From positions 310,001 to 374,000 of the forward strand of contig NZ_JBGUAX010000005.1 in assembly GCF_041821065.1 (NCBI RefSeq): a stretch of 64,000 nucleotides of DNA, written 5' to 3'. The DNA comes from Egicoccus sp. AB-alg2 (GTDB lineage Bacteria; Actinomycetota; Nitriliruptoria; Nitriliruptorales; Nitriliruptoraceae). The notes beneath the pieces are model-generated. The model was not told where the DNA came from and did no database searches. It saw only the letters and a program-made list of their open reading frames with translations. Positions 8,601 through 51,640 of this stretch are shown piece by piece (the stretch's first letter is position 1; the number at the start of each line of letters is the position of its first letter). The position numbers and the translations under genes are program-made.

Positions 8601-10491
8601 GGTCGGCATCGGTGACATGTCGGGTGACGTGTTCGGCAACGGCCTGCTGCGCTCGCGGACCGTCAAGCTGGTGGCCGCCTTCGACCACCGCCACGTCTTC
8701 CTCGACCCCGACCCCGACCCGGAAGTCGCCTTCGAGGAGCGCCGGCGGCTGTTCGAGCTACCGGGCAGCAGCTGGGACGACTACGACCGCGACAAGCTGT
8801 CGCCCGGTGGCGGGATCCACCCGCGCACCGTCCGGTCGATCCCACTGTCGGAAGAGGTCCGCGAGGCGCTGCGGGTCGACGCCGAGGAGCTGACGCCGCC
8901 CGAACTGATCCGCGCCATCCTCGGCGCGCCCGTCGACCTGCTGTTCGCCGGCGGGATCGGCACCTACGTCAAGGCCTCGTCCGAGCGGCACGACCAGGTC
9001 GGCGACCGCACCAACGACGAGGTCCGCATCGACGCCACCGGCCTGCGGGCCCGCGTGTTCGCCGAGGGAGCCAACCTCGCCATCACCCAGCGGGGCCGCA
9101 TCGAGTACGCCCGCCACGGCGGCCGGATCAACCAGGACGCGATCGACAACGCCGCCGGTGTGTCGACCTCGGACCACGAGGTGAACCTCAAGATCCTGCT
9201 GACGCTGGCCGTCGAGGAGGGTCGCCTCGGTCAGGACGAGCGCGACAAGCTGCTCGCCGATCTGGCCGACGACGTCGTCGCCGACGTCATGCGCGACGTC
9301 GACCGGCAGACCGCCGCGCTGTCCCAGGAGCTGGCCCGCAGCCCCGACAGCCTCGACGCCTACGAGCAGTTCATGCGGCGGCTGGAGGCCAACACCGAGT
9401 TCGACCGCGAGGTGCAGATCCTCCCCGACACCGAGGAGCTGACCGCACGGGGCGAGTCGCGCGCCGGGCTGGTCCGACCCGAGCTCGCGACGCTGCTGGC
9501 CTGGGCGAAGCGCGAGATCAAGGAGGCGCTGCTGGCCTCCGCCGTGCCCGACGAGGACCTGCTGCAGCCGCTGCTGGCCGACTACTTCCCCGACGCCGTG
9601 TCCGAGCGGTTCGCCGACCTGCTGCCCCGCCACCGGCTGCGCCGCGAACTGATCGCCACGATGGCGGCCAACGACATCGTCGACCGCATGGGCGTCACGT
9701 TCCCCACGTCGCTCTCCGACCAGGCCGGCGTGCCGCTCACCGAGGTCGTGCTGGCGTACTTCGTCGCCCGCGAGGTGGTGCGCGCCGCCCACTGGTGGGA
9801 CCTGCTCGAGCAGGCGCAGTCGCTGCACGACCCGCAACGGGCGCTCGAACTCGAACAGATCGTCGACCGGTTGGTCGCCCGCGTCGCCTCGACCGTGCTG
9901 CTCGACCCGCTGCTGCGCACGCCGACGTCGCTGCTGGAACGCGACCGTCCGGTCGCCGACGAACTGCTCGACAACATGCTCGACCTCGGCACGCCGTCAC
10001 AACGGCGGGCGCGCGTGGCCCACGCCCGCTGGCTCGTCGACGACCTCGTCGACCCGGAACTCGCCCGCTTCCTGGCCTGTGCCGGCGACCTCGCCATGAT
10101 CCCCGACGTCGCCTACGTGCTCTCGCGCGCGGCCGGCAAGCGCAACCCGTCGGACGTGGCCGACGCGTTCCTCCGGCTGGGCGAGACGCTGCACGTCGAC
10201 CGCATCGAACAGGCGCTGGAACGGGCCGCGGTGCACACGCCGTGGGCACGCCGCCAGCGCGGCGGGCTCGCCAACGACATGCGCCGTCTGCGCCGCGAGG
10301 CCACGCTCACCGCCCTCGAACGGTTCCCGGACGACCCCGAGTCCGAGGCCGTGCAGCAGTTCCTGGTGGAGCGGCCCAGCGCCCTCGAACGCATCCGGAC
10401 CGTGGTCAAGCAGGCCGACGGGCAGGAGAGCCTCGACGCCATCGCCGTGGCGGTGCGGACCATCCGCGACGCCATCGAGCGCGGCGCCTGA
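5656..10491 (+). CDS. gdhB: NAD-specific glutamate dehydrogenase (180-kDa class)
   Basis: Oxidatively deaminates glutamate to 2-oxoglutarate with NAD+, linking amino-acid catabolism to the TCA cycle. At 1611 aa it has the length of the large class known from Streptomyces clavuligerus and Pseudomonas. The N-terminal half holds the ACT-like regulatory region. The catalytic core begins near residue 770 (YFAFKMDPTRVPGMP) and contains GGLRWSDRKDDVRTEV (~817), the lysine-bearing VPTGAKGGFV (~850) and a Rossmann motif GIGDMSGDVFGNGLL (~984). A long helical C-terminal domain follows. The start is GTG at 5656, with a purine stretch (GAGGCAG) upstream; a TAGCAT at 5617-5622 could be the -10. It is monocistronic, divergent from an unknown gene and followed by a repeat-bearing intergenic stretch. 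Confidence 0.95.
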   Translation: MADATSVRDEQPPDPTSTASHERVLTALADLPHDRPEVLAEFARAALRRVPPTMLRGADAPAAARRILEAFEAIDRRSDGEINISLRVPPTGLDGRPALTSVVEVASEDRPFLLSTVTDELERQGYRVVRSLHPIVGVERDEDGRVARIVPARTAEHRESLLHLELGERISESAAAELCQQLRRLVDDVMIATGDFDAMCARIREVAQALQNGRWSHAPEDEQAEVAALLDWLLDENLVLLGIREYDLGEEDGRRVAAVVPGSGLGLLRDESSSRFSEPVPIDTLPAHEREHLERPHLLTVTRTNRLSTVQRRVRMEYFGLSRVDEDGRVVGEFRILGLFTRKGYTEPARSTPVLRDKLRRILETEDVVAGSHDEVMLLSLFQALPKDELFQSSTETLHRTLVGLLHAEEHREIRTLARVDHHTRTVSVLVAVPRDVYSPQLRERLQVLLTRTYGTAKIDVEVSLGDRNEALARFLLQLDGEVPEVSLASLQNDVRKLARSWLDELTVKLRTLLDEGEAQRLTSTVGTRLPRAYRDTVDTDVAVQDVVLLDEVLRSEHGLLVRLQAGDDSLLRLKAAKLGPPLELSGFLPILESLGLIVTEEVPHALERHGDEPKVQLHDFGVRTDDLDVVADGPRLADAVLAAWRGHFQVDSLNRLVLCAQMPWRDVSLLRAYRRYRRQVGTAYTPEYQNDALVAHPEVARALVDHFHTRFDPHRNAGEQELEASRQRVIEACDRLDRLDHDRILRGFLDLIDATLRTNAFREDARADGSREPYFAFKMDPTRVPGMPAPVPYREIFVHSPRVEGVHLRGGRVARGGLRWSDRKDDVRTEVLDLVKAQILKNALIVPTGAKGGFVLMREPQDPDARRDEVRRQYVTFVRGLLDVTDDLEGDEVVPPADVVRRDGDDHYLVVAADRGTATFSDTANLLSRRYGFWLDDAFASGGSNGYDHKALGVTARGAWVAVQRHFRELGMDVQTEPITVVGIGDMSGDVFGNGLLRSRTVKLVAAFDHRHVFLDPDPDPEVAFEERRRLFELPGSSWDDYDRDKLSPGGGIHPRTVRSIPLSEEVREALRVDAEELTPPELIRAILGAPVDLLFAGGIGTYVKASSERHDQVGDRTNDEVRIDATGLRARVFAEGANLAITQRGRIEYARHGGRINQDAIDNAAGVSTSDHEVNLKILLTLAVEEGRLGQDERDKLLADLADDVVADVMRDVDRQTAALSQELARSPDSLDAYEQFMRRLEANTEFDREVQILPDTEELTARGESRAGLVRPELATLLAWAKREIKEALLASAVPDEDLLQPLLADYFPDAVSERFADLLPRHRLRRELIATMAANDIVDRMGVTFPTSLSDQAGVPLTEVVLAYFVAREVVRAAHWWDLLEQAQSLHDPQRALELEQIVDRLVARVASTVLLDPLLRTPTSLLERDRPVADELLDNMLDLGTPSQRRARVAHARWLVDDLVDPELARFLACAGDLAMIPDVAYVLSRAAGKRNPSDVADAFLRLGETLHVDRIEQALERAAVHTPWARRQRGGLANDMRRLRREATLTALERFPDDPESEAVQQFLVERPSALERIRTVVKQADGQESLDAIAVAVRTIRDAIERGA

Positions 10492-10848
10492 CCCGCTCGC
10501 CCTGTGGGCGGCCCGCTCCGGGTGGGCGGCCCACCTGCGCAGGGGGCGTTCCGCCCCGGGGCGCAGCCGCTCGGCCGTTGGCGCGGGGGCCGTCCGCTGC
10601 GGGCGTGCGGGCCGCCTGCGCAGGGGGCGTTCCGCCCCGACACACGCTCCACTCGCCGACGTCGCTTCGCTCGTCGTCAGCCCCTGCTACGGCGACCCCC
10701 ACGCCCTCCGCTCCCAAGACTCCACAATTGGCCCGAGGTGCGGTTCGCTGCGCGCGTCGTCAGCCCCTGCTGCGGCCGCCCACCCACTCTCCGCTCGGTC
10801 CTCCCGGGGCTCGATGGGCCGGTGCGCTTCGCTCGTCGGGGGGTGGGT
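10492..10848. repeat. Intergenic mosaic repeat, first site
   Basis: No convincing gene lies here. Two exact 24-nt copies of one block occur at 10534-10557 and 10615-10638; the same block recurs inverted at 19065-19088. A second block occupies 10681-10714, with a diverged copy at 10764-10796, and again at 18650-18683 and, inverted, 18987-19020. The order of blocks over 10615-10714 matches that of 18987-19088 read on the other strand, so a ~100-bp composite element is dispersed in this chromosome. The stretch lies between the glutamate dehydrogenase stop and the convergent holA stop. Confidence 0.7.
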
Positions 10849-13800
10849 TCAGGTGGGGGCGAGGGGGTTCCAGGGGCGGCCTACTTCTCGGGGGGTGGCC
10901 ACCTCGAGGATGGCCAGTTCGAGGAGGAGGTGGTCGGGGAGGTCGGCGCCCTTGAGGTCGACGTCGAGCTGTGCCAGGCGGTCGTGGCACCAGGCCAGCT
11001 CGCCCGGGTTGAAGGCTGCGGCGAGGCCCTGCAGGCGGCGGTGCTGGCCAGGCGACACGCCGGCCTCCTTCGGCGCCGCGCCGCTTCGGACCAGCAGGAG
11101 CTGGCGCATGCGGAAGGTCAGCGCGCCGAGGATGGCCAGCGGCGCCTCGCCGGCCTCCAGCGAACCGCGGACCGCGACCAGTGCGCCGGCCGGGTCGCGT
11201 TCGGCCACGGCGTCGGCGATGGCGAAGCCGGACCGGCGCCCGTGTCCCTCGACGGCCGACTCGACGTGCTCGGCGGTCAGGGTGGCCACACCGGCGTGGG
11301 TGGCGCACACCGAGCCGACCTTGGACGCGATCGTGCCCGGGTCGTTGCCGGCGTGGGCCAGCAGCGCGGCGATCGCGGTGGCGTCCGCCTTGCGCTTCAG
11401 CCGGCGGAACTCCTCGCCGGCCAGACGCTGCCAGCCCCGGTCGTCCCAGTCCGGCGGGGTCTTCACGTCGATCCGCTGCCCGTGCTCCTTGGCGAGCTTG
11501 GCGATCTTCTGGATCTTGCCGACGCCGCGGGCGACGACGACCAGCACCGCCTCGTCGGTCGGGGACGCGACGTAGGCCTCCACCTCGGCCTTCAGGTCGC
11601 CCGACAGGTTCTCCGCCCCGCGCACCACGACGCAGGTGCGCCCGCCGAACAACGAGGCGGTGCGCAGTTCCGGCAGGTGGTCGGTCTCCTGCACGTCGCA
11701 CGTCTCGACCGTGAGCTCCGGATCCTGCGCGCGCAGGTCGGCGAGGGCACGTTCGAGCTCGCGGTGCAACAGCAGGTCGTCGTCGCCGACGAGGAGCAGC
11801 ACGGGAGTCATGCGGGGAGCCTATCGACGGCCGGTGACCCGCCCCGTCCGCCTCCCGCACCGCCCGCCGCGGGGCCGGGACGCCGACGCGGACCGTGCCG
11901 TGCAGATCGGTGCGATGCACCTCGGTGCCCAGGTCGTCGAGCACCCGCAGCGTGCTCGGTGCCGGATGGCCGTAGGTGTTGTCGGCGCCGACGCCGATGA
12001 CGGCCACCTGCGGGGCGACCGCGGCCAGGAACGCCGGGTCCGTGGTCGCGGCACCGTGGTGCGGGACCGCCATCAGCTCCGCGGCGAGCGGGTCCGGGCG
12101 CGGGTCGTCCGCGGCACGGGCGAGCAGGTCGGCCTGGGCGGCCAGCTCCGCGTCGCCGGCGAAGAGCACGCGCCGGTCGTGCCAGGTCACACGGATCACG
12201 ATGGAGCCGTCGTTCAACTCACTGGGCGACCAGCGGTAGGGGCGGCCCGCGTCCGGACCCAGCACCTCGACGTCGAGGTCGCCGACCACCACCCGGTCGC
12301 CGGTCACGGGACCGCGGACGGGCACGTCGCGGTCGGCGGCCACCTCGAACAGGTCGTCGAGGATGGGCGACTCCGTGCCGAAGGTCCGCAACCACACGGC
12401 GCCGACCTGCACCGAGCGCAGCACCTCGGGCCCGCCGCCGACGTGGTCGGCGTGTGGGTGGGTCACGACCAGCAGGTCCAGGCGCCGACGGCCGTTGGCG
12501 CGCAGCCATCGTGCCGCCCGGTCGTCCTCGCCCGCGTCGACCAGCACGCGGGCCTGCGGTGACTCCACCAGGAACGCGTCGCCCTGCCCGACGTCGATCG
12601 CCGTGACCGTCAGCCCCGAAGGCGAACGGGCCCCGACGGCCAGCGGGGCGAACGAGGCCAGCACCAGCACCGCGGCCGTCGCGGCGGCCAGGCGTGCCGG
12701 CGGGCGGCGAGCCGGAGCCAGCAGCGCGAGACAGGCGAGGACCAGCGCGGCGACGGTCACCGGCCGGCCCACGTCGGCGACCCCACCGCGCCCGGCGAAC
12801 CCGTGGGCCGCCAGGAGCACGATCCGGGCCGGCCAGCCGGCGAGGGCGAACAGCCAGGTGCCGGCCTCGAGGTGGACGGCCGCGACCACGGCCGCCACGA
12901 ACCCGATCGAGGCAGCCACCGCGGCTGCCGGCACGGCGACGAGGTTCGCCGGCACCGACGCGAGCGGCACCTCCCCGAAGCTCGCCAGCAGTAGCGGGAC
13001 GACGGCGATCTGCGCGCCGAGCGTCACCGCCAGGACGTCGGCGACACGCGCCGGCAGGCGGTGCAGGCGCGGCCGCACCGCCGGGGCGATCACCAGCACG
13101 CCGGCGGTCGCGGTGGCCGACAGCAGCAGGCCGAGCGACCCGGCCAGGCGCGGGTCGAGCAGGACGAGCAGCAGCACGGCCGCAGCCAGCGCATGCCGCG
13201 CGTCGCGGGCGTGGCCGCGCGCGCCGGCCAGCAGCACCACACCGGCCATCGTTCCCGCGCGCAGGACCGAGGGCTCGAAGCGGGTCAGGAACGCGAACCA
13301 CACCAGCGTGCCCGCCAACACGCCCCGGCGTGCCGCGGCCGGCAGCCGCAATACCAGGCACAGGCCGTACACGCCCGCGGTGACCAGCGCGACGTGCGTG
13401 CCCGACACGGCCGTCAGGTGCGTCAGCGAGGTCGCCTGCATCGCCGTGCGCTCGGCCTCCGGCAACGTGCGGGTGTCGCCGGTGGCCAGGCCGGCCAGCA
13501 GCCCGCCGACCGGGGGCGGGTTGCGGGCACGAGCGGCCTGGCGGACGCGGTCGCGCACGTGCTCGCTCGCACGTGCGGGCCCGCCGGGCTGGCCGGCGTC
13601 GGTCCAGTTGCGCAGGTCGAGCGCGACCGTGACGTGCTGTTGCGCGAGCCAGCGCCCGTAGCCGCCGTCGGGCAGCGGTCGCGCGGTCGCCGAGGCCGTG
13701 AACCGTTGCCCCAACGGCGGCGGGTCGTCGACCTCCAGCGTGGTCGCCGCCCGCTCGCGTGTGGCCTGGCCGTCGACCGCCTCGATCCGCACGACCGCGT

Positions 13801-14212
13801 GCCAGCCGGTCGCAATCGGACGCGGCTCGCGCACGACCGTGCCGGCGACCGTGACCGCACCGCCATGGTCGGCGACGTGCGGGAGCAGCCCCCAGCCGGT
13901 CGTCGCGTCGCGCGCCAGGATGCCGGCCGCCCCGACCGCGGTCGCGGCCAGCAGCAGCCACGCCCCCACCACCGGTGCCGCGGGCGCCAGACGGGACGCC
14001 GACGCGGGGCTTCGGCACCTCGCCACACCGACGGCGACCGCCACCACGGCGACCGACGCGACGACGACGGCGGTCAGCAGCGGCCGTTCGAGGCGGTCCG
14101 CCGCGAGCGATCCCGCCCCGGAACCGGCCACCACGGCCGCCGCCCACAGCGGCAGCGGCCCGAGCACCGACCCGAGCGGCGGGCGATCCCACCCCCCGTC
14201 GTCGGCGGTCAC
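10760..14212 (-). CDS. comEC: ComEC/Rec2 DNA-uptake channel; frame runs on through holA
   Basis: Inner-membrane channel that carries single-stranded DNA into the cytoplasm during transformation. Recognisable ComEC covers about residues 1-797 (14212 down to ~11822): an N-terminal TM/DUF4131-like part, the multi-pass Competence domain with the [15 protein letters not shown] motif, and a C-terminal metallo-beta-lactamase domain with [10 protein letters not shown] (~582-591) and AVPHHGA. The GTG start overlaps the comEA stop by 4 nt (GTGA). The frame then has no stop until 10760, running about 350 codons out of phase through holA. The predicted tail is Arg/Pro-rich shadow translation, so the true end is probably near 11820. 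A one-base slip would reach the TAG at 11821. Either a lost stop, a frameshift or a sequence error is involved. Confidence 0.85.
10849..11811 (-). CDS. holA: DNA polymerase III subunit delta
   Basis: Clamp-loader subunit that opens the beta clamp; 320 aa, normal for HolA. It begins [20 protein letters not shown], the nucleotide-fold start of the delta family. Other typical stretches are [15 protein letters not shown] (~55-70), a middle AAA-like part, and the C-terminal collar region [14 protein letters not shown]. The ATG start at 11811 is ten nt after a TAG at 11821-11823 in the same frame. Transcription is minus, downstream of comEC, the usual comEA-comEC-holA order. Oddly, the comEC reading frame stays open through the whole of this gene (see comEC). 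Confidence 0.93.
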   Translation of the reverse strand: MTPVLLLVGDDDLLLHRELERALADLRAQDPELTVETCDVQETDHLPELRTASLFGGRTCVVVRGAENLSGDLKAEVEAYVASPTDEAVLVVVARGVGKIQKIAKLAKEHGQRIDVKTPPDWDDRGWQRLAGEEFRRLKRKADATAIAALLAHAGNDPGTIASKVGSVCATHAGVATLTAEHVESAVEGHGRRSGFAIADAVAERDPAGALVAVRGSLEAGEAPLAILGALTFRMRQLLLVRSGAAPKEAGVSPGQHRRLQGLAAAFNPGELAWCHDRLAQLDVDLKGADLPDHLLLELAILEVATPREVGRPWNPLAPT

Positions 14213-15027
14213 GACACCGTGACCAGGTCGGCCAGCTGCTGGAAGGTCTTCTCGCCGATCCCGGGGACCTCGCGCAGGTCGCCGGGCACCTGGAACGGGC
14301 CGTGCTCCTCGCGGTGCCGGACGATCGCGGCCGACTTGCTCGGACCGATGCCGGGCAGCCGCTGGAGCTCCTCCTCGCCGGCACGGTTGAGGTCGATCGG
14401 TGCGTCACCGCCCCCCGCCGCCCCCGCCGCCGCGTCGCCGCCCGATCCCGGCGCGCCGCCCGTCGGGGGCGGTGGATCCTCGCCCTCACGCGGCAGGTGG
14501 ACGTGCTCGCCATCCTCCAGCAGACGCGCGAGGTTGAGGTGGTCGAGCCGGGCGTCGTCGGTGGCACCGCCCGCTGCGGCGATCGCGTCCGCCACCCGCG
14601 CTCCGCCATCGAGGGTCACGACCCCTGGTGTCGACACGGCACCGGTGACGTGGACCACGAGGCTCGCGGGTGCCGACGTGCCGCCGGTTCCGTCGGCCCC
14701 GACCCCTGCCTCGGCCGACCCCGCGGCCGGCGGTTCCGACAGACCCGGATCGCCGGCGACGCCGCCGGCGTCCCGTGGGTGAGCGTGGTGGTGCTCGTGC
14801 GGGTCCGGTGCCGCACCGTCCACCTCGGCGCCGTCGTGGACGTCACCGATCAGGCCTGCCGCGTCGCCTGGTGTCGCGCCCGGGCGCTGCGCGGCCTGGA
14901 CCACGAACAGGCCGGTGGCCACCAGCGCGCCGAGGAGCAGCAGCGCCACACCGGCCGCTTCGGCCGGGGTCGCCTGGAGCCAGGTCAGCGCCCGTTGGCG
15001 CAGCGGGATCGGGTCGGCGTCGTCCAT
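14209..15027 (-). CDS. comEA: ComEA-like DNA-binding competence protein
   Basis: Membrane-anchored DNA receptor for transformation; 272 aa. A single TM segment (about 25-45, [17 protein letters not shown]) is followed by a long Ala/Gly/Pro/His-rich linker. An SLBB domain follows ([16 protein letters not shown] to [11 protein letters not shown]), and the C-terminal helix-hairpin-helix pair ([20 protein letters not shown] and [12 protein letters not shown]) binds DNA. The start is the ATG at 15027. Its stop overlaps the comEC GTG by 4 nt, implying translational coupling. The frame is open upstream to a TAG at 15229 and looks coding all the way (see the small upstream gene). Confidence 0.92.
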
Positions 15028-15228
15028 GGCGACAGCCTGCCGGGCCTCGGCGCCGGTCCCCGATCGCGTTCCCTGCCGCTTGTGGACGACGTCGCCGACG
15101 GCGTCGCGGGCGACGGGCGGCTGGAGCTCCTCGAGGAAGCGTTCGGCCCGTTCCGCGAGCCCGTCGACGACCGTGCCGACCGAGCGAACCAGGTCACGGC
15201 CGTCGGCCTTTCCCTGGACGATCCAGAC

Positions 15229-15417
15229 CTACCGGTCCTCCTCGGCGACCTCGGTGACGCCCGGAACCGCCGCCAGTGCCGCTTCGACGCCCTGCCGCAA
15301 CTCGTCCTCGAGCGGGTCGTCACGCCGGAACTCCGCAACCGCGACACCGACCTGCCAGGTCCAGGGCCCGGCGTCGTAGCGGATCGCCTCGACGGCACGG
15401 AGGTCGTCATCGTCCAC
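15229..15417 (-). CDS. Small conserved-looking protein ending at a suspicious TAG
   Basis: A 62-aa product starting at GTG 15417, just downstream of degV and in the same direction. It reads as genuine protein: [20 protein letters not shown], then [20 protein letters not shown], then [13 protein letters not shown]. It then meets TAG at 15231-15229. After the TAG the same frame stays coding-like ([20 protein letters not shown], then a helical [11 protein letters not shown]) and continues without a stop into comEA. This suggests a ~100-aa protein truncated by a nonsense change; GAG to TAG would restore EEDREVW. The alternative is a genuine short protein. Function unknown. Confidence 0.45.
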
Positions 15418-15425
15418 CAGCCGCT

Positions 15426-16280
15426 TCAGGCGTCGGCGCGCGGCACCACGGCGATCCCGACGGCCCCCGGACCCACGTGGGCGCCGACGATGGGGCCCAT
15501 GTGCGTCTCCAGCCGCTCGCCGACCTCCAGCCGCCCTTCGAGCCGTGACCACAGTGACGCGGCCCGCTCGGCGGCGACGGCGTGGGCGACCACCACGTCC
15601 ACCTCGCGGCCCGCAGCGTGCTCCACCGCCATCTCCGCGACCCGGTCCAACGCCCGCTGCCAGGTCCGGGTGCGTTCGCGTACCTCGACGCGCCCCTCGA
15701 CGACCTGCAGGACCGGCTTCACCCGCAGCACGCTGCCGACGGCGGCCTGCGCGCCGGTGAGGCGACCGCCGCGCTTGAGGTGGGACAGATCGTCCACCAC
15801 GAGCAGGCTCAGCGACCGGTCGCGCACGGCCTCGGCGACCTCCACCACCTCGGCAACCGTGCCGCCGGCCTCGGCGACACGGTGGGCACGAAGGGCCGCG
15901 AGACCCAGCGCGCCACCGACCAGTTGCGTGTCGACCACTTCGACGGGCAGGCCGGCCCGGCCGGCGCGGTGCCGGGCCAGGTCGACGGTGCCCGACAGCG
16001 CGGCGGACACGTGTAGGGACACGACGGCGTCGTGGCCGTCGTCCACGCAGTCGGCGTAGGCCTCCTCGAACCAGGCCGGTGCGGGCTGCGACGTGGTCGG
16101 CAGCCGCGACGTCGCGGCGAGGCGGTCGTAGAAGGCCTCGTTGGAGATGGTGACGCCGGAGATGAGCGTCTCGTCGCCGAACGTCACCGACAGCGGCACG
16201 ACCCGGATGCCGAGGCGCTCGACGAGGTCCGCCGGCAGGTCGCAGGTCGAGTCGGTCACCACCGCGACACCGCGTCCCAC
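15426..16280 (-). CDS. DegV family fatty-acid-binding protein
   Basis: DegV/FakB-type protein, 284 aa, that binds a single fatty acid; in Firmicutes FakB presents it to the kinase FakA. The diagnostic start [12 protein letters not shown] lies at residues 5-16, followed by LVPLS-like [13 protein letters not shown] and the fatty-acid site motif TSQPAP. The C-terminal domain contains [14 protein letters not shown], typical of the family. I chose GTG 16280 because the DegV fold begins there and a GAGGGAG run lies upstream; a longer frame adds only an Arg-rich stretch. It sits between the hydrolase gene and the small pre-comEA gene. No FakA homologue is in the window. Confidence 0.9.
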
Positions 16281-16339
16281 CGCCCACTCCCTCGCCGGGC
16301 GCGGCAGCCTAACGGTCCCTCGGCACCGCGCACCGCAGG

Positions 16340-17248
16340 TCACGGGGTCGAGGGCTGGGCCGTCGCGGTCGAGGGCGGCGTGCCCGGGGCGACGACGTGG
16401 TCGAGGACGAGGTCGCCGACGTCGTCGGGCCGCTCGAGGTGCAGGAAGTGGCCGACGCCGTCGAGGATCACCACGCGCGAGGCGGGGTGCGGCAGCCGTC
16501 CGATGCTGCGCTCGGCCCAGACCACGCCGATGCAGCCGTCGTCACGGCCGTGCAGCATCAGGTGCGGCTGTGGCGGCAGGGGGACCCGGTGTGAGAGGGC
16601 CCGGCCGGACAGCACCGCCGGGACGAACCCGCGGTAGTACGCGAGCACCGCCCGTGGGGCGCCGGGGCTGCGCAGGACCGCCCGCAACGGCGCCAGGTCG
16701 TCCTCGGTCGGCACGTAGTCCGGCGACCAGCGTCGCCACAACCGCACGAACCCGGCGGCGTCCGCTGAGGCCATGCGGTGCTCGGCCCCCGGCAGCAGCG
16801 CCGCGAGCGCGTAGCGCGAGCGCACCACCTGCGGGCCGTCACCGGCGGCCCCCAGCAGCACCCGCTCCGGTGGGACCGCCAGCGTCACCAGCCGGCGCCA
16901 CCGTTCGGGCGCGGCCGCCGCGGCCCGCATGCCGGCGATGGCGCCCCAGTCGTGTCCGATCAGCACCGCGTCGCGGCCGCCCCCGAGCGCCCGGTGCAGG
17001 GCGTTGACGTCGGCGGCCAGCGTGTCGGGCTCGACCCGTACCCGGTCGGGCACCCCGGTCGGTGGATAGCCCCGCGCCCACGGCGCCACCGCGTGGAAGC
17101 CCGCCTCGGCCAGTCGCGGCAGCAGGTGGCGCCAAGTCGCCGGCGTGTCCGGGAAGCCGTGCAGGCACAGCGCCAGGGGGCCGTCCGGCGGCCCCGCCTC
17201 GACGTAGGCGAACGTCAGACCGTTGGCCCGTGTGAACCGCGCTGCCAC
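16340..17248 (-). CDS. Alpha/beta hydrolase, epoxide hydrolase/dehalogenase-like
   Basis: A 302-aa alpha/beta-hydrolase. Residues ~30-45 give the oxyanion loop HGFPDTPATW. The nucleophile motif is GHDWG near residue 100, with Asp rather than Ser, as in epoxide hydrolases and haloalkane or fluoroacetate dehalogenases. The acid probably lies in HGRDDGCIG and the base is the His of GVGHFLHLE near the C-terminus. The GTG at 17248 has GGAGG about 10 nt upstream. It is on the minus strand, with degV 59 nt downstream, and divergent from the F420 oxidoreductase. Substrate cannot be told from sequence. Confidence 0.85.
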   Translation of the reverse strand: MAARFTRANGLTFAYVEAGPPDGPLALCLHGFPDTPATWRHLLPRLAEAGFHAVAPWARGYPPTGVPDRVRVEPDTLAADVNALHRALGGGRDAVLIGHDWGAIAGMRAAAAAPERWRRLVTLAVPPERVLLGAAGDGPQVVRSRYALAALLPGAEHRMASADAAGFVRLWRRWSPDYVPTEDDLAPLRAVLRSPGAPRAVLAYYRGFVPAVLSGRALSHRVPLPPQPHLMLHGRDDGCIGVVWAERSIGRLPHPASRVVILDGVGHFLHLERPDDVGDLVLDHVVAPGTPPSTATAQPSTP

Positions 17249-17470
17249 CTCGACGTCGCCTCCTCGTCCGATCCGCGACCACCTCGACGCACACGCGCGG
17301 CACATGGGTCGTCACACGAAAGCTACCGGCGCGGCCGCGACCGACCGGACGGAAGTCGGCGTCCAGGCTCGCCGTCGGACCCGCACCCTCGGTGACTCAC
17401 GCCCGACTGATGCACGAGCCACCCGCACGCCCCGAACGCCCATCGACGCCCCGCGGAAAGGACGCCTCCG

Positions 17471-18427
17471 GTGGCGAACTACGGCTTCACCCTCTTCTCC
17501 GAACTCAACGGCCCCAAGGAGATGGTCGAACAGGCCGTCGCCGCCGAACGGGCCGGCGGTGTCGACTTCCTCGGCATGTCCGACCACTTCCACCCGTGGC
17601 TCAGCCGCCACACGGACAGCCCGTTCGCCTGGACCGCGCTGGGGGCCGTCGCGACGGCCACCGAACGGCTCGAGATGGTCACCCTCGTGACCTGCCCGTT
17701 CCTGCGCTACCACCCCGCGATCATCGCGCAGGCGGCCGCCACCGTGCAGATCCTGGCCGACGGCCGGTTCACGCTGGGGCTCGGTGCCGGCGAGAACCTC
17801 TCCGAGCACATCGTCGGCCGGGGCTGGCCGCCCGTCGACGTCCGCCACGAAATGTTCGCCGAGGCGGTCGAGATCATCCGCGAGCTGTGGACCGGCGAGT
17901 GGGTGACCTACCACGGCCAGCACCTGACCGCGCAGGACGCCAAGCTGCACACGCTGCCCGAGCAGGCGCCCCGGATCGCGCTGGCCGCCTCCGGACCCCA
18001 GTCGATCGAGCTCGCCGTCGAGCACGGCGACGACATCGTGTGCGACTCCCCCGAGCCGGACGTCGTCGAGGGCTTCAAGGCGCAGAAGCCCGAGGGCCGC
18101 GCCTACGCCCAGATCCCCGTCGCCTACGACGAGGACTTCGACACCGCCCTGGACGCCGCCCACCACTTCGCGTTCGGCGCCACCGGCTGGAAGGTGATGG
18201 CGGAACTGCCCAACATCCCCGGCTTCGACGCCACGGCCGCACTGGTCGACGACGACGCCATCCAGGAGCTGGTCGTGACCGGCAGCGACCCGAAGCCGCT
18301 CGTCGACAAGCTCCAGCAGGCGGTGGAGACCGGCTACGACCACATCGCCGTCGTGCAGGTCGGCCCCGAACGCACCGACCGCTTCCAGGACTGGTTCACC
18401 CAGAAGGTCCGCCCCGAACTGCCGTAA
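17471..18427 (+). CDS. F420-dependent LLM-class oxidoreductase
   Basis: A 318-aa luciferase-like (LLM) flavin/F420 enzyme of the subgroup related to F420-dependent glucose-6-phosphate dehydrogenase. It begins MANYGFTLFSE and shows the TIM-barrel landmarks MSDHFHPWL (~36-44), LVTCPFLRYHPAIIAQAAAT (~72-91), the F420/FMN phosphate loop RFTLGLGAGENLSEH (~100) and IALAASGPQSIELA. It would transfer hydride to or from coenzyme F420, implying the host makes F420. The GTG start has AAGGA eight nt upstream. It is a single gene, convergent with leuS across the repeat-rich 18.4-19.1 kb stretch. Substrate unknown. Confidence 0.9.
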   Translation: MANYGFTLFSELNGPKEMVEQAVAAERAGGVDFLGMSDHFHPWLSRHTDSPFAWTALGAVATATERLEMVTLVTCPFLRYHPAIIAQAAATVQILADGRFTLGLGAGENLSEHIVGRGWPPVDVRHEMFAEAVEIIRELWTGEWVTYHGQHLTAQDAKLHTLPEQAPRIALAASGPQSIELAVEHGDDIVCDSPEPDVVEGFKAQKPEGRAYAQIPVAYDEDFDTALDAAHHFAFGATGWKVMAELPNIPGFDATAALVDDDAIQELVVTGSDPKPLVDKLQQAVETGYDHIAVVQVGPERTDRFQDWFTQKVRPELP

Positions 18428-18451
18428 CCGAAACGCGGTGGTGGATCCCGG

Positions 18452-18591
18452 CCCGCTGCGGGTGCGGTGGTCGATCCCGCCCGCTGCGGGCGCGGTGGTC
18501 GCCTGCCACGGTTGCAACCTGACGCCCGCTGCGCATGCGGTGGTCGCCTGCTACGGCTGCGACGTGACGCCCGCTGCGGGTGCGGTGGTCG
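18452..18591 (+). repeat. Four direct copies of a 22-nt unit
   Basis: Near-identical 22-nt units start at 18452, 18480, 18525 and 18570 (each CCCGCTGCG...GCGGTGGTCG), with 28-, 45- and 45-nt periods. A fifth copy lies inverted at 19089-19110. It is non-coding, directly after the LLM oxidoreductase stop. Spacing and the lack of cas genes argue against CRISPR. Confidence 0.75.
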
Positions 18592-18760
18592 CCTCCGCAG
18601 GGGGCGCTTCGCTCGCTCTCGGTTCGCGCCTGGGGCGCTCCCGAGATAGCCCCTGCTACGGCGACCACCCCACCCTCCGCTCCGGGGTCGGGCCCTGCGC
18701 GCCGTCCCGCCCGACGGCGCGGCGGCCGGCTGGTTGCCGGATCCGTCCGGTCGCGTCTGC

Positions 18761-18815
18761 CGGCAACGGTCGCGCGCGGCTGCCTCGGCATGGCAGCCAG
18801 GCGCGACCGTTGCCG
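18761..18815. ncRNA. Strong two-tier stem-loop
   Basis: Perfect 15-bp arms CGGCAACGGTCGCGC (18761-18775) and their complement (18801-18815). A 2x2 internal loop and a 7-bp inner stem GGCTGCC/GGCAGCC close a 7-nt loop. An upstream GTTGCCGG (18733-18740) can pair with 18760-18767 and would compete for the 5' arm. This is a structure prediction by eye only; whether it is transcribed is unknown. Confidence 0.4.
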
Positions 18816-18861
18816 AGTGCCGTAACCGCGTGGAGTACGCAGCCGGGGGTACGCGATCCGC

Positions 18862-18908
18862 ATGCGTGCATCCTGACGCGCAGCGATAGCGGGTCGGGAT
18901 GCACGCAT
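18862..18908. repeat. 12-bp inverted repeat
   Basis: Perfect arms ATGCGTGCATCC (18862-18873) and GGATGCACGCAT (18897-18908) with a 23-nt loop, 46 nt after the preceding stem-loop. It could be a protein-binding palindrome or a transcript hairpin. Confidence 0.5.
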
Positions 18909-18986
18909 CCGCCCGGCGCCGACCTCCGCCGCCTAGCCCCGGCGGCCGACCGCCGTGCGCCGCACCGCCCCGCGGCGAGCGCCGAG

Positions 18987-19110
18987 GGAGCGGAGGGGCG
19001 GGTGGTCGCCGTAGCAGGGGCTGTGAGCGAGCGAAGCGATGCTCACGAGTGGAGCCGAGTGTCAGGGGCGGAACGCCCCCTGCGCAGGCGACCACCCGAC
19101 CCGCAGCGGG
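18987..19110 (-). repeat. Composite intergenic repeat, inverted copy
   Basis: Read on the minus strand, this stretch carries the 22-nt unit (19110-19089), the 24-nt block (19088-19065, identical to 10534-10557 and 10615-10638), a TCGCTTCGCTCG stretch, and the 34-nt block (19020-18987). The last three occur in the same order at 10615-10714. It ends just beyond the leuS stop. Confidence 0.7.
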
Positions 19111-19132
19111 GACACCGCCGCCACCCGAGTGG

Positions 19133-21655
19133 CTAGGCGACGACGAGGTTGACGAGCTTGCCGGGAACGACGATCACCTTGCGCACCTCGCCGGTCAGCT
19201 GGTCGGCGACGGCGTCGCGGGCGGCGGTCTCCGTCGCGGACTGGTCGGCGTCGGCCGGCACGGTGACGCGGGCGCGGACCTTGCCGTTGACCTGGACGAC
19301 GATCGTGACCTCGTCCTCGACGAGCAGCGAGGTGTCCGCCTGCGGCCACGACTGGTCGTGGACGGAGTCGCCGTGGCCGAGCCGCCGCCACAGCTCCTCG
19401 GTGATGAACGGGCAGATCGGCGCCAGCAGCTTCTGCAGCACCTCGAGCGCGTCGCGGGTCGCGGGCCCGTGCACGCCGTTGCGGGTGGCGTCGAGCACGG
19501 CGTTGGTCAGCGTCATCAGCTTGGCGATGGCGGTGTTGTACTTGCGCGCCGCGTAGTCCTCGCTGGCACCGACGATGGCCTCGGCGGTCGCCTTGCGTAG
19601 CGCGGCGACGGCGTCGTCCGGGCCGGGTTCGGCCAGCCCCGACTCCTCACGGGCGACGTGCTCCAGGGTGAGGCGCCACACGCGCGAGAGCCACTTGTGC
19701 ATGCCGCCGGGCGAGACGTCGGCCCAGTCGATGTCGTCCTCGGGCGGCGAGGCGAACAGCATCGTGCCGCGCAGCGTGTCGGCGCCGTAGGTCTCGTAGA
19801 CCTCGCCCGGCACGACGAGGTTGCCCTTCGACTTGGACATGGCCGCGCCGCCGAGGATGACCTGGCCCTGGCTGAGCAGCGCCTGGAACGGCTCGTCGGC
19901 GGCGACCAGCCCACGGTCGCGCATGGCCTTCACGACGAAGCGGGCGTAGAGCAGGTGCAGCACGGCGTGCTCGACCCCGCCGGTGTACTGGTCGATCGGC
20001 AGCCACCGGCCGGCCGGCTGCACGGGCCAGGCGAGGTCGTCGCTGCGCGGGTCGAGGTAGCGCAGGAAGTACCACGACGAGTCCACGAACGTGTCCATCG
20101 TGTCCGTGTCGCGGACCGCTTCCTCGGAGCCGCACTGCGGGCAGGTGACGTCGTGCTTCCACGTCGGGTGCAGCGCCAGTGGTGAGCCGGCCACCTGGAA
20201 GTCGAGGTCGTCGGGCAGCCGGACGGGCAGCTGGTCGTCGGGGACGGCCACCTCGCCGCAGGACGGGCAGTGGATGATCGGGATCGGTGCGCCCCAGGAG
20301 CGCTGCCGGGAGATCAGCCAGTCGCGCAGCCGGTAGTTGACGGTCGCCTTGGCGATGCCGCGCTGCTCGAGGTCGGCGGTGATGCGCTGCTTGGTCTCGC
20401 GCCAGTCCAGCCCGTCGTACGGGCCGGAGTTGACGGTCACGCCGTCGCCGGCGTACGCCTCGGTCATGTGCGCACCGTCGAGGTCGGTGCCGTCCTCGGG
20501 CGCGACGACGACACGCACCTCGAGGTCTTCCTGGCGGGCGAAGTCGAAGTCGCGCTGGTCGTGGGCGGGCACGGCCATGATCGCGCCGGTGCCGTAGTCC
20601 ATCAGCACGTAGTCGGCGGCGTAGGCGGGAACGTTCTCGCCCGTGGCCGGATTGACCATGTCGAAGTTCAGGCGCAGGCCGCGCTTCTGGCGTCCGGTGC
20701 CCTTCTCCGCGGTCCCCTCGAACGAGGCCATGCGCTCGATCTCGGACTTGCGTGAGACCTCGTCCATGAAGGCGCGGTAGTCGGGGTCGTCGCCCATGCG
20801 CGCCTCGACCAGCGGGTGCTCGGGCGAGAAGACGAAGTAGGTGGCGCCGTACAGGGTGTCGGGCCGGGTCGTGTAGACGACGACCTCCTCCCCCGGGCCG
20901 TCGGCGTCGGCGGTGCGGAAGGTGACCTCGGCGCCCTCGGAGCGACCGATCCAGTTGCGCTGCAGGGTCTTGACCCGCTCCGGCCAGTCCAGCGTCGGCA
21001 GCGCGTCCAGCAGTTCGTCCGCGTAGTCGGTGATGCGGAAGAACCACTGGGTCAGCGGCTTGCGGACGACGACGGTGCCGCAACGCTCGCAGGCACCGTC
21101 GACGACCTGCTCGTTGGCGAGCACGGTCTGGCAGCCCTCGCACCAGTTGACCGCGGCGGCACGGCGGTAGGCCAGCCCGGCGTCGAACAGCTGCAGGAAC
21201 AGCCACTGGGTCCAGCGGTAGTACTCCGCGTCGCAGGTGTGCAGCACCCGGTCCCAGTCGAACGAGTAGCCCAGACGCGCGATCGTGGCCCGCTGCTCGG
21301 CGATGTTGTCGTAGGTCCACTTGGCGGGGTCGGCGCCGCGGTTGCGGGCGGCGTTCTCCGCCGGCAGCCCGAAGGCGTCCCAGCCGATCGGGTTCAGCAC
21401 GGTGCGGCCCGTCATGCGCAGGTGCCGCACGAGCGCGTCGTGGATCGAGAAGATCTCCGCGTGCCCCATGTGCAGGTCACCGCTGGGGTACGGGAACATC
21501 GTCAGGGCGTAGAAACCTTCGCCGTCCGCGGTCGCGTCGAGCGGCAGCGAGTAGACGCGCTCGTCGTGCCAGCGCCGTGCGATCGCCGGCTCGAAGGCGA
21601 GCGGGTCGTAGCGCTCGACCTCGGTGCCGGTCGGGATCGCCTGCCCGTCGCTCAC
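19133..21655 (-). CDS. leuS: Leucyl-tRNA synthetase
   Basis: Class I synthetase that charges tRNA-Leu; 840 aa, within the bacterial range. The HIGH-type motif is [12 protein letters not shown] (~57-68) and the KMSKS motif is AAMSKSKGN (~604-612). The CP1 editing domain and paired CxxC clusters (CEGCQ, CERCG, CPSCG, CPQCG) are present, and the C-terminal part ends [11 protein letters not shown]. The GTG at 21655 has AAGGAG six nt upstream. A longer in-frame reading upstream has no synthetase character and crosses a terminator. The gene is monocistronic, minus strand, converging on the F420 oxidoreductase across the repeat stretch. Confidence 0.97.
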
Positions 21656-31703: not shown

Positions 31704-33584
31704 TCAGAACGGGATGGTGTCCCCAGGATCGACGAATTGCCTGAGCCTGCGGCCGGCGGGTGGATCGCAGCCAGCGCTGGGCGTGTCGCCGGGCACGGCA
31801 GACGGGTCGGCACCGGTGCTCGGCGCCTTGCCAGATCGGGCCGGCGGGTCCGTGCCACCAGGCACGGTGGACGGACCGGCACCACCGGTCGGCCCGTCGC
31901 GAGGCGCGCCCGGCAGGTCGAGACCGCCGCGTGACGAGCCGCGTGGTGCTGCGGGCGGGTCGGTGCCGCCGGACGGGCCCCAGTCGACGGGTGCGGTCGG
32001 CAGGGAGATGCGGGTGGTGCCGGGCAGGGCCCGGATCCGCAATCCGCTTCTCGGGTGGTGCCAGATCCGGACGCCGTCGGCGGTCTGGGTGACGATCCAG
32101 CCGGCGGTCTCCTTGGTGTGGTTGGTGGGCCGGCACACCGGCGCCAGCTCATCGATGTCGGTACGCCCCGGCACATCGCCAGGCCGGACCGGATGCCAGG
32201 GGCGGGCGTGATCCAGATCGCAGGCCAGCGCAGCGACCTGGCAGCCGGGTTCGCTGCAGGTGTCCTGGACCGCCAGCACGGCGTCGGACAGCCAACCGGG
32301 CGGCAACCGGCGGGTCCGGCCGACCCCGAGGACCTGGCCGGCGTCGTCGACGACGATGGCCCGCAGCTCGGTTCCGCGTTGGTCGAGCAGCCGCCGCGCC
32401 GCCACGGAGGTGAGCTGCAGCCGGCCGCCGGACAGGCGGGTCAACAGCTCGGCCGGCAGCCGGCCGGTGTCGAGCAGGGTGTCGTACGAGACACGCAGCA
32501 ACACCTTGACCGGCACCCGCCCGCCGCCGTCGCCGGTCGCGCCGGCCTCGAGCAGGTCGATCAGCTTCTCGAACCGGCGCCGGCCCCGATCGGCCGACGC
32601 CTGCCGGACCTGGTCCGGATCCGGGTCATGCCCGATCCCGGGTTTGGTGGCCGGACCGGCCCGGCCGGGGTCGGTGGCGGCCTCGAGCAGCGCGAAGTTG
32701 GCCGCGCCTGCCTGTCCGAAGAACCGGCCGCCGGTGCCGTCCAGCCGCGGCTGGAGCACCAGCATCTCCGCCGGCTCGTCGACACCCTCGTCAGGTTCTT
32801 CGGGGTCGGTGGCGGTCAGATCGGCGGCCAGCCACCGGACCAACCCGGACACGGCATCCGGGTCCGCGCCCTCCAACCGGTCGACCAGCTCGTCGACCGC
32901 GGCGTCCAGCAGGCCATCCAGCCGGCGCGGCAGCCGCTGCACTTCCAGCGCGATGATCCGCAGCTGCGCCCACGAGATCCGGGCCTGATCGAACGCCGCC
33001 TTCAGGCCGGGCAGCCGCCGCAGCACCTCAGCGGCGGTCAGCAGCATCCGCCGATCCGCGGACGTGCGGCGGGCCTCGCTCAGCAGCCACTGCTCCAACG
33101 GCACCCCCGTCAAGGTTTCGACTGCGGAGCTGTCCTGGAGCTGGATGATCGTGTCCAACACCGAGGCGAGCAGCCGATCGACCAAGCGCAGCTCGTCGAG
33201 CATCCCGGCCAGCCCCGGCACCTCCGCCAACACCGGAAACGCGTCCAAGCGGTCGGCCACAGCCGCCGGCTCGCGCGCAGCCGCAGGTGTCGTCACCGAC
33301 GCGGCATCGACGGCGTCGCCAGCCGGATCCGTGCTCGAGGACGCATCCGTGCGATAGCCGGCACCGTGATCGGCCGCCAGCACCCGACCGACCGTGTGCG
33401 GCCGCGCCCCCCGACGCGCGGCCCCACCGGCAGCCCCGTAGCGGCCGGCCGGAGCGGCCGACAGCGACGGAGCGGAAGCTGTGCGAAGCATCGACCCAGT
33501 ATCGGCGACGGGTGTGACACGAACCGCGCCGATTTGGCCGGCCGGAGCGGCCGACAGCGACGGAGTGGGGACGGTGCGAAGCAT
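31704..33584 (-). CDS. DUF222 domain HNH endonuclease (13E12-type)
   Basis: About 626 aa, resembling the REP13E12 family of mycobacteria. A long DUF222 helical region (~90-430; DELRLVDRLLASVLDTIIQL and similar) is followed by the HNH core. The core reads CSEPGCQVAALACDLDHARP, then ELAPVCRPTNHTKE. A Pro/Gly/Thr-rich tail of about 100 residues ends DPGDTIPF. The listed start is ATG 33584. An alternative ATG at 33491 sits in a second copy of the same 79-bp sequence, and the frame is open to 33692. Both ATGs follow GATACT by 6 nt, as in leaderless genes. It interrupts the moxR-PQQ-VWA order; mobility is inferred. Confidence 0.85.
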   Translation of the reverse strand: MLRTVPTPSLSAAPAGQIGAVRVTPVADTGSMLRTASAPSLSAAPAGRYGAAGGAARRGARPHTVGRVLAADHGAGYRTDASSSTDPAGDAVDAASVTTPAAAREPAAVADRLDAFPVLAEVPGLAGMLDELRLVDRLLASVLDTIIQLQDSSAVETLTGVPLEQWLLSEARRTSADRRMLLTAAEVLRRLPGLKAAFDQARISWAQLRIIALEVQRLPRRLDGLLDAAVDELVDRLEGADPDAVSGLVRWLAADLTATDPEEPDEGVDEPAEMLVLQPRLDGTGGRFFGQAGAANFALLEAATDPGRAGPATKPGIGHDPDPDQVRQASADRGRRRFEKLIDLLEAGATGDGGGRVPVKVLLRVSYDTLLDTGRLPAELLTRLSGGRLQLTSVAARRLLDQRGTELRAIVVDDAGQVLGVGRTRRLPPGWLSDAVLAVQDTCSEPGCQVAALACDLDHARPWHPVRPGDVPGRTDIDELAPVCRPTNHTKETAGWIVTQTADGVRIWHHPRSGLRIRALPGTTRISLPTAPVDWGPSGGTDPPAAPRGSSRGGLDLPGAPRDGPTGGAGPSTVPGGTDPPARSGKAPSTGADPSAVPGDTPSAGCDPPAGRRLRQFVDPGDTIPF

Positions 33585-33614
33585 CGACCCAGTATCGGCG
33601 ATGCCTGTGACACG
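33443..33614 (-). repeat. 79-bp direct duplication of promoter-start region
   Basis: Copies at 33443-33521 and 33536-33614 (93-nt offset) each contain GATACT (minus strand, 33503-33498 and 33596-33591), six nt, then ATG. Each also carries the same first ~16 codons of the HNH gene. The offset is a multiple of three, so the frame stays open across both. Duplicated start sites of this kind could give two isoforms or simply mark a recent slip. Confidence 0.7.
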
Positions 33615-42146: not shown

Positions 42147-42710
42147 ATGAAGCACCTCTCACGCTGGAAGACGGTGACGGCCACGGCCGCCACGGCGGCG
42201 CTCGCCGCTGGCGCGTTCGGGCTGTCGGCCGCCGTCGCCGGCCCGACGCAGGCGCCCGCCGCCATCGACCTGGACACGGAGTCGACGCTCGGTGAGCGCA
42301 TCGCCGACGACCGCGGCGTCGACGGCACCGACACCAGCGGCTCGCCCGACACCAGCGGGTCCCCGGACACCAGCGGGTCCCCGGACACCAGCGGCTCGCC
42401 CGACACCAGCGGCTCGCCCGACACCAGCGGGTCCCCCGCCTCCCCGGCCACGCCGCCGACGCCGGACAGCCCGGCCTCCCCGGCCTCGCCCGCCAGCGCC
42501 GCCTCCATCGACTCGCCGGACGAGGCCCGCTCGGAGACCCGGACCCGGACCGAGACCCGCAGCGACGACTCGCGCACCCGCCAGGAGACCCGGACGAAGC
42601 ACGCGTCGCCCGACTCCCCGGGAAGCGTCGCGTCGCCGCCCAGCCCGGCCTCGCCGCCGAGCGCGGACAGCCCCGACTCCGTCGACTCGCCGGCCTCGAA
42701 CGACAGCTGA
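42147..42710 (+). CDS. Exported Ser/Pro/Asp repeat protein
   Basis: A 187-aa low-complexity protein. A probable signal peptide (~1-33, LAAGAFGLSAAVAG) is followed by a short acidic stretch. Six perfect DTSGSP repeats occupy residues 62-97. Then come SPASPATPPTPDSP-type sequence, a charged Arg/Thr/Glu patch (SETRTRTETRSDDSRTRQE), and an Ser-Pro-Asp tail. No enzymatic domain; likely secreted or wall-associated and probably disordered. The ATG follows GAGGAG by eight nt. Similar in N-terminus and SPDS-rich tail to the product at 46510. Upstream CTCAG boxes suggest control by the adjacent two-component system. Family not recognised. Confidence 0.7.
   Translation: MKHLSRWKTVTATAATAALAAGAFGLSAAVAGPTQAPAAIDLDTESTLGERIADDRGVDGTDTSGSPDTSGSPDTSGSPDTSGSPDTSGSPDTSGSPASPATPPTPDSPASPASPASAASIDSPDEARSETRTRTETRSDDSRTRQETRTKHASPDSPGSVASPPSPASPPSADSPDSVDSPASNDS
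42330..42437 (+). repeat. 18-bp coding tandem repeats (x6)
   Basis: Six 18-bp units encode DTSGSP. Units differ only at synonymous third positions. Copy-number change would not shift the frame, so length variation between strains is expected. Confidence 0.9.
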
Positions 42711-46509: not shown

Positions 46510-46968
46510 GTGGACACCCCACGACGGTGGCAGGTCGCCTCGGTGGTCACGGCCGCGGCCAGCATCGGCGCCGGCGCCCTGGCGCTGCACCGCCCCTCCG
46601 CCGAGGCCATCGAACCGATCGACCTCGACGTCCTCGCCGCGCAGGTGGCGCCGGGGCCGGACGCCGATCCGCCGGTGACCGGCTCCCTCGACGCCGTGAT
46701 CGTCCCGCCGGACCTGCTCGAGCGGGTGCCGACGCCGCCGACCCCGGCCACACCGGTGACCGCCGAGACGCCGGCCACACCGGGCGAGACACCGGCGACA
46801 CCGGCGACACCGGCGACACTGGCGACACCGGCGACACCGGCGTCCATCGCCTCGCCCGACGACGACTCGGCGACGACCAGCACCGCCCCGGCCACGACCT
46901 CGCGCACCGCGCCGGCGCCGGCGGACAGCCCCGACAGCGTCCACAGTCCGGACAGCATCGACACCTGA
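46510..46968 (+). CDS. Exported Thr/Pro/Ala repeat protein
   Basis: A 152-aa low-complexity protein. The N-terminus RRWQVASVVTAAASIGAGAL looks like a signal or anchor (~5-32). A folded-looking middle (IEPIDLDVLAAQVAPG) follows, then TPAT-type repeats (~75-112) and a Ser/Asp/Pro tail ending DSPDSVHSPDSIDT. The tail resembles that of the gene at 42147 (DSPDSVDSPASNDS), so the two flanking proteins look related. GTG with GAGGA upstream, 10 nt after the kinase stop. No family recognised; the context suggests an output or ligand of the two-component system. Confidence 0.7.
   Translation: MDTPRRWQVASVVTAAASIGAGALALHRPSAEAIEPIDLDVLAAQVAPGPDADPPVTGSLDAVIVPPDLLERVPTPPTPATPVTAETPATPGETPATPATPATLATPATPASIASPDDDSATTSTAPATTSRTAPAPADSPDSVHSPDSIDT
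46788..46841 (+). repeat. 9-bp coding tandem repeats (x6)
   Basis: Six GACACCGGC units, one with a C-to-T change, coding for alternating Ala/Thr/Pro. In-frame expansion or contraction is possible. Confidence 0.85.
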
Positions 46969-51386: not shown

Positions 51387-51405
51387 CCCGCGGCTGAGCA
51401 CCATG

Positions 51406-51435
51406 GAGGGGCGGCGCGCGAGCGCCGCCCCTCCG
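51406..51435 (+). terminator. GC-rich hairpin after LVIVD gene 1
   Basis: A perfect 13-bp stem GGAGGGGCGGCGC (51406-51418) and its complement (51423-51435), closing a GCGA tetraloop, 20 nt after the stop. No U tract follows, only GGCGTT. Confidence 0.6.
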
Positions 51436-51640
51436 GCGTTCCGAACTGCCGCCCGCGTGCGCTGGTTCCACGGCCAGGGACCGTTGTCCTGTCGCCCGGA
51501 CTACGTTGCCCGCTGTCGTCATCAGCACCCGGGAGAGAGCGGATGACGACGAATCGGGGCGTGCCGCCGGTCCTCTCGTGGACGGGGCGGCGTGCCCCTT
51601 CGTCGTTGTGGAGCGCGATTCCTGCGAAGGAGAGACGTAC

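Follow-up and report, generated by a model that had tools for sequence, protein, structure and literature searches.

A palindromic repeat, denoted E1, recurs in the 64,000 nt stretch of Egicoccus sp. AB-alg2 DNA analysed here (G000:C5:310001-374000, hereafter the window) and elsewhere in the same genome (4.84 Mb in 29 contigs). As far as searches of Rfam, sequence collections and the literature tell, E1 is undescribed; in particular, no paper joining repetitive extragenic palindromic (REP) sequences, compensatory change and hairpins in actinobacteria was found. E1 is probably a non-autonomous, dispersed palindromic DNA repeat, similar to REPs and to Rickettsia palindromic elements (RPE), with arms that are kept complementary at the DNA level. 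The direct observations behind this reading are the anatomy of the copies, the Watson-Crick covariation of their arms, their dispersal, the empty sites in related genomes and the duplication of a composite of two E1 copies around a second repeat, E2.

The original prediction described two blocks, of 24 and 34 nt, as parts of a dispersed mosaic repeat in intergenic regions of the window. The 24-nt block, CCTGCGCAGGGGGCGTTCCGCCCC, is indeed exact at 10534 and 10615 on the forward strand and, inverted, at 19065-19088; AGCCCCTGCTACGGCGACCNCC, which forms the core of the 34-nt block, recurs without mismatch at 10679 and 18648 (forward) and at 19001-19022 (reverse), and the predicted diverged copy (~10745-10796; 83%, repeat family D10) is real as well. 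Chance likeness of GC-rich DNA is ruled out as the source of the blocks by the shuffle expectations, namely, 0 occurrences of CCTGCGCAGGGGGCGTTCCGCCCC even with 3 mismatches allowed (100 dinucleotide-preserving shuffles) and 0.02 of AGCCCCTGCTACGGCGACCNCC. The order of the blocks is kept on opposite strands, at 10593-10715 (forward) and 18986-19110 (reverse), as predicted. The repeat itself is thus real, but its mosaic appearance is more aptly described as two arms belonging to one long hairpin, E1, with the 5' arm in the 24-nt block and the 3' arm in the 34-nt block.

A full E1 copy is a hairpin of 115-125 bp that can be folded from one strand, in the order 5'-CCCGCTSCGG, outer 5' arm, a 3-nt side (usually TGC or TCC), GCAGGGG, loop, CCCCTGC, a 3-nt side (TAC or TCC), outer 3' arm, CTCCGCTCC-3'. 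The outer stem of 11-16 bp is variable and the inner 7-bp stem, GCAGGGG/CCCCTGC, is conserved, with a 3x3 internal loop between them. The loops are of two types: type A combines GGGGCGTTCCGCCCC with a further small hairpin, and type B has a single TCTCGG...CCGAGA hairpin. Pair counts and sequence place all these parts in the type A copy at 18986-19110 on the reverse strand (123.9 bits with the covariance model R1; fold z -4.03), in which the outer arms are GGGTGGTCGCC (5', 19087-19097) and GGCGACCACCC (3', 19000-19010), and the inner stem, P2, consists of GCAGGGG at 19077-19083 and CCCCTGC at 19014-19020, parted from the outer stem by the internal loop TGC/TAC.

The outer arm may differ wholly between copies (GGGTGGTCGCC, GGCCCGGGGATCGCC, GTGGGGTGGCTGCC), and the partner arm follows. 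When 19 copies from four genomes are aligned, pairing extends to 94.4% of the stem cells compared to 83.8% after shuffling, and 13 pairs show two-sided changes; the alignment has a covariation score of 0.272, with shuffled alignments giving 0.093 +/- 0.013 (0 of 500 shuffles reach the observed value), and the score drops to 0.069 or less when the pairing partner is slid. Kinship among sequences can beat shuffles without any structure; here, however, both the number of two-sided changes and the result of sliding the partner agree with structure.

Strong covariation and stable folds are also what could be expected if E1 were a structured RNA at transcript 3' ends, selected as a terminator or a stabiliser of the mRNA 3' end, such that the covariation reflects RNA folding. 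The outer-stem cells, however, include 268 Watson-Crick pairs, 1 G.U, 7 A.C and 17 other mismatches, that is, G.U hardly occurs and does not exceed A.C, which favours exchange between the arms at the DNA level, since under selection on RNA, which tolerates G.U, that pair should be more frequent than A.C. Template switching is described in PMC8794818 and PMC8604942 as an established route to homogenisation of inverted-repeat arms and to double substitutions without G.U intermediates. On these small numbers, DNA-level arm exchange appears to be the better reading of the covariation than RNA selection. Known RNA families lend no support to an RNA either: E1 has no Rfam match, with tRNA-Ala being the only Rfam hit in the window and none at the 18 loci with E1 copies, and no T-run intrinsic terminator was detected at 10400-19300 of the window. 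Furthermore, some E1 copies (at clpX and at the C13:80.6k gene) are preceded by another hairpin, one that already has a T-rich tail.

The genome-wide search that the original prediction proposed yields seven occurrences of each block core and 13 full E1 copies (blastn and R1), all 13 of them intergenic, given that a predicted open reading frame (ORF) overlapping the C7 copy is judged spurious. Together with the empty sites described below and the lack of an Rfam match, this bears out the suggestion of an undescribed intergenic repeat family. Contigs C13 and C14 end within E1, the usual behaviour of repeats, which break assemblies.

In the window, there are three full copies, a 5' fragment, a degenerate 3' fragment and a set of 5' units arranged in tandem, distributed over two intergenic regions. 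The first lies between holA and a large ORF that ends at 10491 and faces it; this ORF resembles NAD-glutamate dehydrogenase (GDH) by sequence reading and has no NCBIfam match, and other genes named here that lack a family match are likewise identified by reading the sequence. It holds, on the forward strand, a partial copy at 10512-10557, consisting of the flank, the outer 5' arm and the GGGGCGTTCCGCCCC hairpin (85% over query positions 11-56; repeats D17 and I3), a full type A copy at 10593-10715 (R1 114.7 bits; also found by blastn) and a degenerate 3' part at 10745-10826 (blastn 73%, L036; family D10). In the second region, where a gene for an F420-dependent LLM oxidoreductase faces leuS, an array of E1 5'-end units with 45-nt and 28-nt periods (18434-18569, forward; Tandem Repeats Finder, repeats D12) precedes a full type B copy at 18570-18684 on the forward strand (R1 95.5 bits; single-stranded DNA fold z -4.80), followed by E2 at 18748-18828 (unstranded; inverted repeat I8 and E2 search), the shared centre between this copy and the inverted one at 18986-19110.

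Both E1-bearing regions of the window are located between convergent genes, as the original prediction had it for all copies, but genome-wide this applies to only 6 of the 10 assessable loci, the other 4 lying between co-directional genes. Copies at convergent junctions are nearly all nearer to the gene to which they are sense, as a role in RNA would have it, whereas at the C20 and C7 loci E1 is antisense between co-directional genes; the possibility that E1 is always sense to the upstream gene was dropped on account of these two loci. Also difficult to reconcile with a selected RNA is that there are just 13 copies in ~4.8 Mb and that orthologous gene ends do without E1. Taken together, these observations make the RNA explanation unlikely.

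Orthologous junctions were located and read in four relatives, G001, G002, G003 and G010. The C5:114.5-115.1k junction, which carries two E1 copies, is 633 bp long here compared to 3-22 bp in all four relatives; the LLM/leuS junction is 705 bp, against ~110 bp in G003 and 12 bp in G010; the C1:438k junction is 281 bp, against 16-32 bp in G002 and G003; and the GDH/holA junction is 357 bp, against ~87-104 bp in G003 and G002. The orthologous junctions in the relatives being short and empty, E1 appears to have inserted or expanded in the lineage of the window's own genome. The variable complementary arms would be accounted for if E1 had inserted within the loop of a terminator that was already there, an option that we rejected because no hairpin matching the E1 arms is present in the relatives' empty sites.

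The LLM/leuS and C5:114k junctions share the composite of a type B E1, E2 and an inverted type A E1; the E1 copies of the two composites are 98% identical, and the homology begins and ends at the E1 5' ends. The composite duplication, the tandem arrays of E1 5' units and a pair of neighbouring copies that are 97% identical (C3:239.6k and C3:240.7k) are compatible with copies that have no mobility of their own and were left behind when GC-rich intergenic hairpins underwent local duplication and gene conversion. Against this possibility, which we consider very improbable, E1 is found on many contigs and in another genus, and the empty sites contain no seed sequence for conversion.

E2 (CCGGCAACGGTCGCG...CGCGACCGTTGCCGG) is itself palindromic and occurs at ~20 places in the genome, many of them beside E1; besides window 18748-18828, these include C7:275000-275286, C20:13049-13145, C3:239800-239883, C3:240462-240646 and C1:438187-438283. 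G001-G003 and G010 contain only weak, short matches to E2. A gene for a cytidine/dCMP-type deaminase lies between inverted E1 copies (G000:C3:239626-240811, L101), with DNA matches in G001 and G002 and none in G003 or G010. Upstream of the E1 copy there, three hairpins with C-rich loops (G000:C3:239135-239626; L101 3136-3626), conserved in G001-G003, recall 6C-type RNA and have no Rfam match; a search of Rfam at a relaxed E-value around C3:239-241k returned nothing meaningful, and signal recognition particle RNA, considered for an RNA gene upstream of the C3:239.6k copy, received no Rfam support. At G000:C5:402755-402914 (L103), the final codons and the stop of a permease-like gene form part of a ~62-nt tandem duplication adjoining an E1 copy.

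No candidate mover of E1 was identified. Neither a Y1, REP-associated tyrosine transposase (RAYT) or IS200-type transposase (PF01797; searched in the window's own genome, where positive controls were detected) nor a reverse transcriptase (PF00078, RVT_1; own genome, G001-G003 and G010) was found, and these two kinds of enzyme were rejected as movers; no transposase partner emerged from PF01797 and PF00078, DDE transposases and other recombinases not having been searched. Short, palindromic, dispersed and insertion-like in comparison with the empty sites, E1 could in principle be a classical miniature inverted-repeat transposable element (MITE), that is, an insertion sequence shortened by deletion and mobilised by a DDE transposase via terminal inverted repeats. 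When full copies are aligned in search of terminal repeats, however, as originally proposed, the would-be terminal arms turn out to be the part that varies most between copies, yet they are complementary; the conserved ends, CCCGCTSCGG and CTCCGCTCC, are direct-like rather than inverted; and no target-site duplication is visible against the empty sites, the flanks having diverged. We therefore regard a classical MITE as very improbable.

Among 120 relatives searched with R1, E1 was detected, apart from the 13 full copies in the own genome, in G001, G002 and G010 (3 copies each) and, weakly, in G072. G001 and G002 belong to the same genus as the window's genome, G010 to another genus of the family and G072 to a distant actinobacterial family; the other same-genus and same-family genomes searched with R1 yielded no E1. 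Exact-pattern scans of genome and viral collections matched a single metagenome-assembled genome, G001 (JAGXST01, Actinomycetota, isolate CROMO_BS_109_2_0), and none of the viral contigs scanned. The three copies in G072 have the E1 architecture, with a variable outer stem and a TCC/TCC internal loop, and share the inner stem GCGGAGG/CCTCCGC with G010. The model R2, built with the G072 copies added, has 97.1% of cells paired and a covariation score of 0.496, against 0.159 +/- 0.023. Across 396 genomes of the phylum, R2 retrieved three copies in G153 and one in G182, both from the family of G072, and one weak match in G221; given that G072 is in the training set, the new carriers are these three only. 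Direct alignments across the two lineages score above shuffled controls, the strongest case being G010-G153 (score 37 against 18.4 +/- 2.6; 0 of 300 dinucleotide-shuffled controls), which makes a common origin of the E1 copies of the two lineages likely.

The distant family has seven E1-like copies, of which six are embedded in frame in conserved genes and one is located at the 3' end of a gene. The G072 copies (L133 1545-1656, L231 1501-1590 and L229 1501-1590) are located in dnaE (twice) and priA (once); those of G153 (L272 1473-1556, L267 1501-1584 and L260 1501-1584) in carA, in priA and at the 3' end of a thiolase gene; and that of G182 (L261 963-1046) in priA. The priA palindrome occupies about the same linker in the three genomes, and the DnaE proteins with the palindrome show long PHP and HHH_6 matches. 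In an alignment with E. coli CarA, the flanks that are contiguous in the E. coli protein are 43 residues apart in G153, with an insertion of ~38 residues at the palindrome.

Under the scenario that we favour, a DNA repeat with arms maintained at the DNA level, insertion or expansion would have placed E1 at intergenic junctions, for the most part 3'-3' convergent ones and often together with E2; because no dedicated Y1 transposase is present, it may spread either by recombination or in the form of single-stranded DNA that folds into a hairpin. The arms would be kept complementary by template switching from one inverted repeat to the other in the course of replication, with copying from arm to arm. 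At the 3' end of a gene, E1 would form a stable mRNA 3' hairpin that may be tolerated or mildly useful and is probably not the reason for its existence. Several observations weigh against this scenario. The 3x3 internal loop is kept in nearly all copies although pure arm-to-arm correction should erase it, so some constraint on the hairpin structure itself is likely; the proximity of most convergent copies to the gene to which they are sense may point to a role at the RNA level; and no enzyme or transposition intermediate has been identified, nor is a target-site duplication visible.

A broader hypothesis, which we put forward only tentatively, is that E1 represents a family of palindromes specific to certain Actinomycetota that is recognised by its structure and not by its sequence and spreads, free of RAYT, as a single-strand hairpin, with the arms rewritten copy by copy via DNA-level exchange, the 3x3 loop and the inner stem kept, and coding sequence entered in one lineage as an in-frame, RPE-like protein insert. 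If our favoured reading of E1 is right, its arms, rewritten between copies at dated insertion sites, would allow the two possible causes of complementarity in inverted repeats, DNA template switching and RNA selection, to be tested against each other in nature. Its intergenic location in one lineage and in-frame location in dnaE, priA and carA in another would, furthermore, make the entry of palindromes into essential proteins and their tolerance directly comparable.

The window includes other repeats, namely, a 93-nt repeat in two head-to-tail copies (90% over 79 nt) within GC-rich DNA at 33443-33614; two homologous blocks ~2.1 kb apart, 74-81% identical, at 49779-53490, which resemble a tandem gene duplication; and 18-nt and 9-nt tandem repeats at 42312-42455 and 46788-46850, which probably encode low-complexity peptide repeats.

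Comparison with known systems places E1 closest to REP and RPE. The attC sites of integrons carry GTTRRRY/RYYYAAC boxes; like them, E1 is an imperfect hairpin with structure conserved above sequence, but the base of its stem has no such boxes, and no gene cassettes were found (the integrase was not searched). Retrons and group II introns differ in that they would call for a reverse transcriptase, with no PF00078 match in the own genome, G001-G003 or G010. With MITEs, E1 shares its non-autonomous, short, hairpin-forming and dispersed character but not conserved terminal inverted repeats or a visible target-site duplication. The originally suggested REP- or MITE-like nature thus holds only loosely: neither a GTAG or CGTC end tag nor a RAYT-type transposase accompanies E1. 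In GTAG-type REPs, which are associated with RAYT, a Y1 tyrosine transposase, the tag stands at one end of a palindrome of 20-40 bp, whereas 10 of the 19 E1 copies have GTAG, and only internally, at the base of the inner stem. CGTC-type REPs have an end tag, an 8-9 bp stem and a 4-5 nt loop (PMC3733652), none of which fits the E1 alignment; REP stems in general span 5-13 bp and loops 2-20 nt (PMC3733652, PMC2817692), compared to the two-tier stem, 40-60 nt loop and 115-125 bp of E1. In the broad sense, E1 does resemble REPs, being a short, dispersed, extragenic palindrome with 13 full copies that is mostly intergenic, downstream of genes, and occurs in families and clusters. Moreover, some REPs lie inside genes, many of these being replication and repair genes, and CGTC repeats have no dedicated transposase (PMC3733652, PMC2817692), and distant E1 relatives likewise reside inside dnaE and priA. 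RPEs are palindromes of ~100-150 bp located in frame inside unrelated conserved genes (PMC10969869), as are the E1 relatives in dnaE, priA and carA of the distant family; E1 differs in sequence, in its actinobacterial hosts and in being exclusively intergenic in the window's own genus. E1 is, therefore, REP/RPE-like in behaviour while lacking the end tag and RAYT that define REPs strictly and the conserved terminal inverted repeats of MITEs; if our reading is correct, palindromic repeats of the REP/RPE type extend to Actinomycetota, a group that the list of REP host phyla in PMC3733652 does not include.

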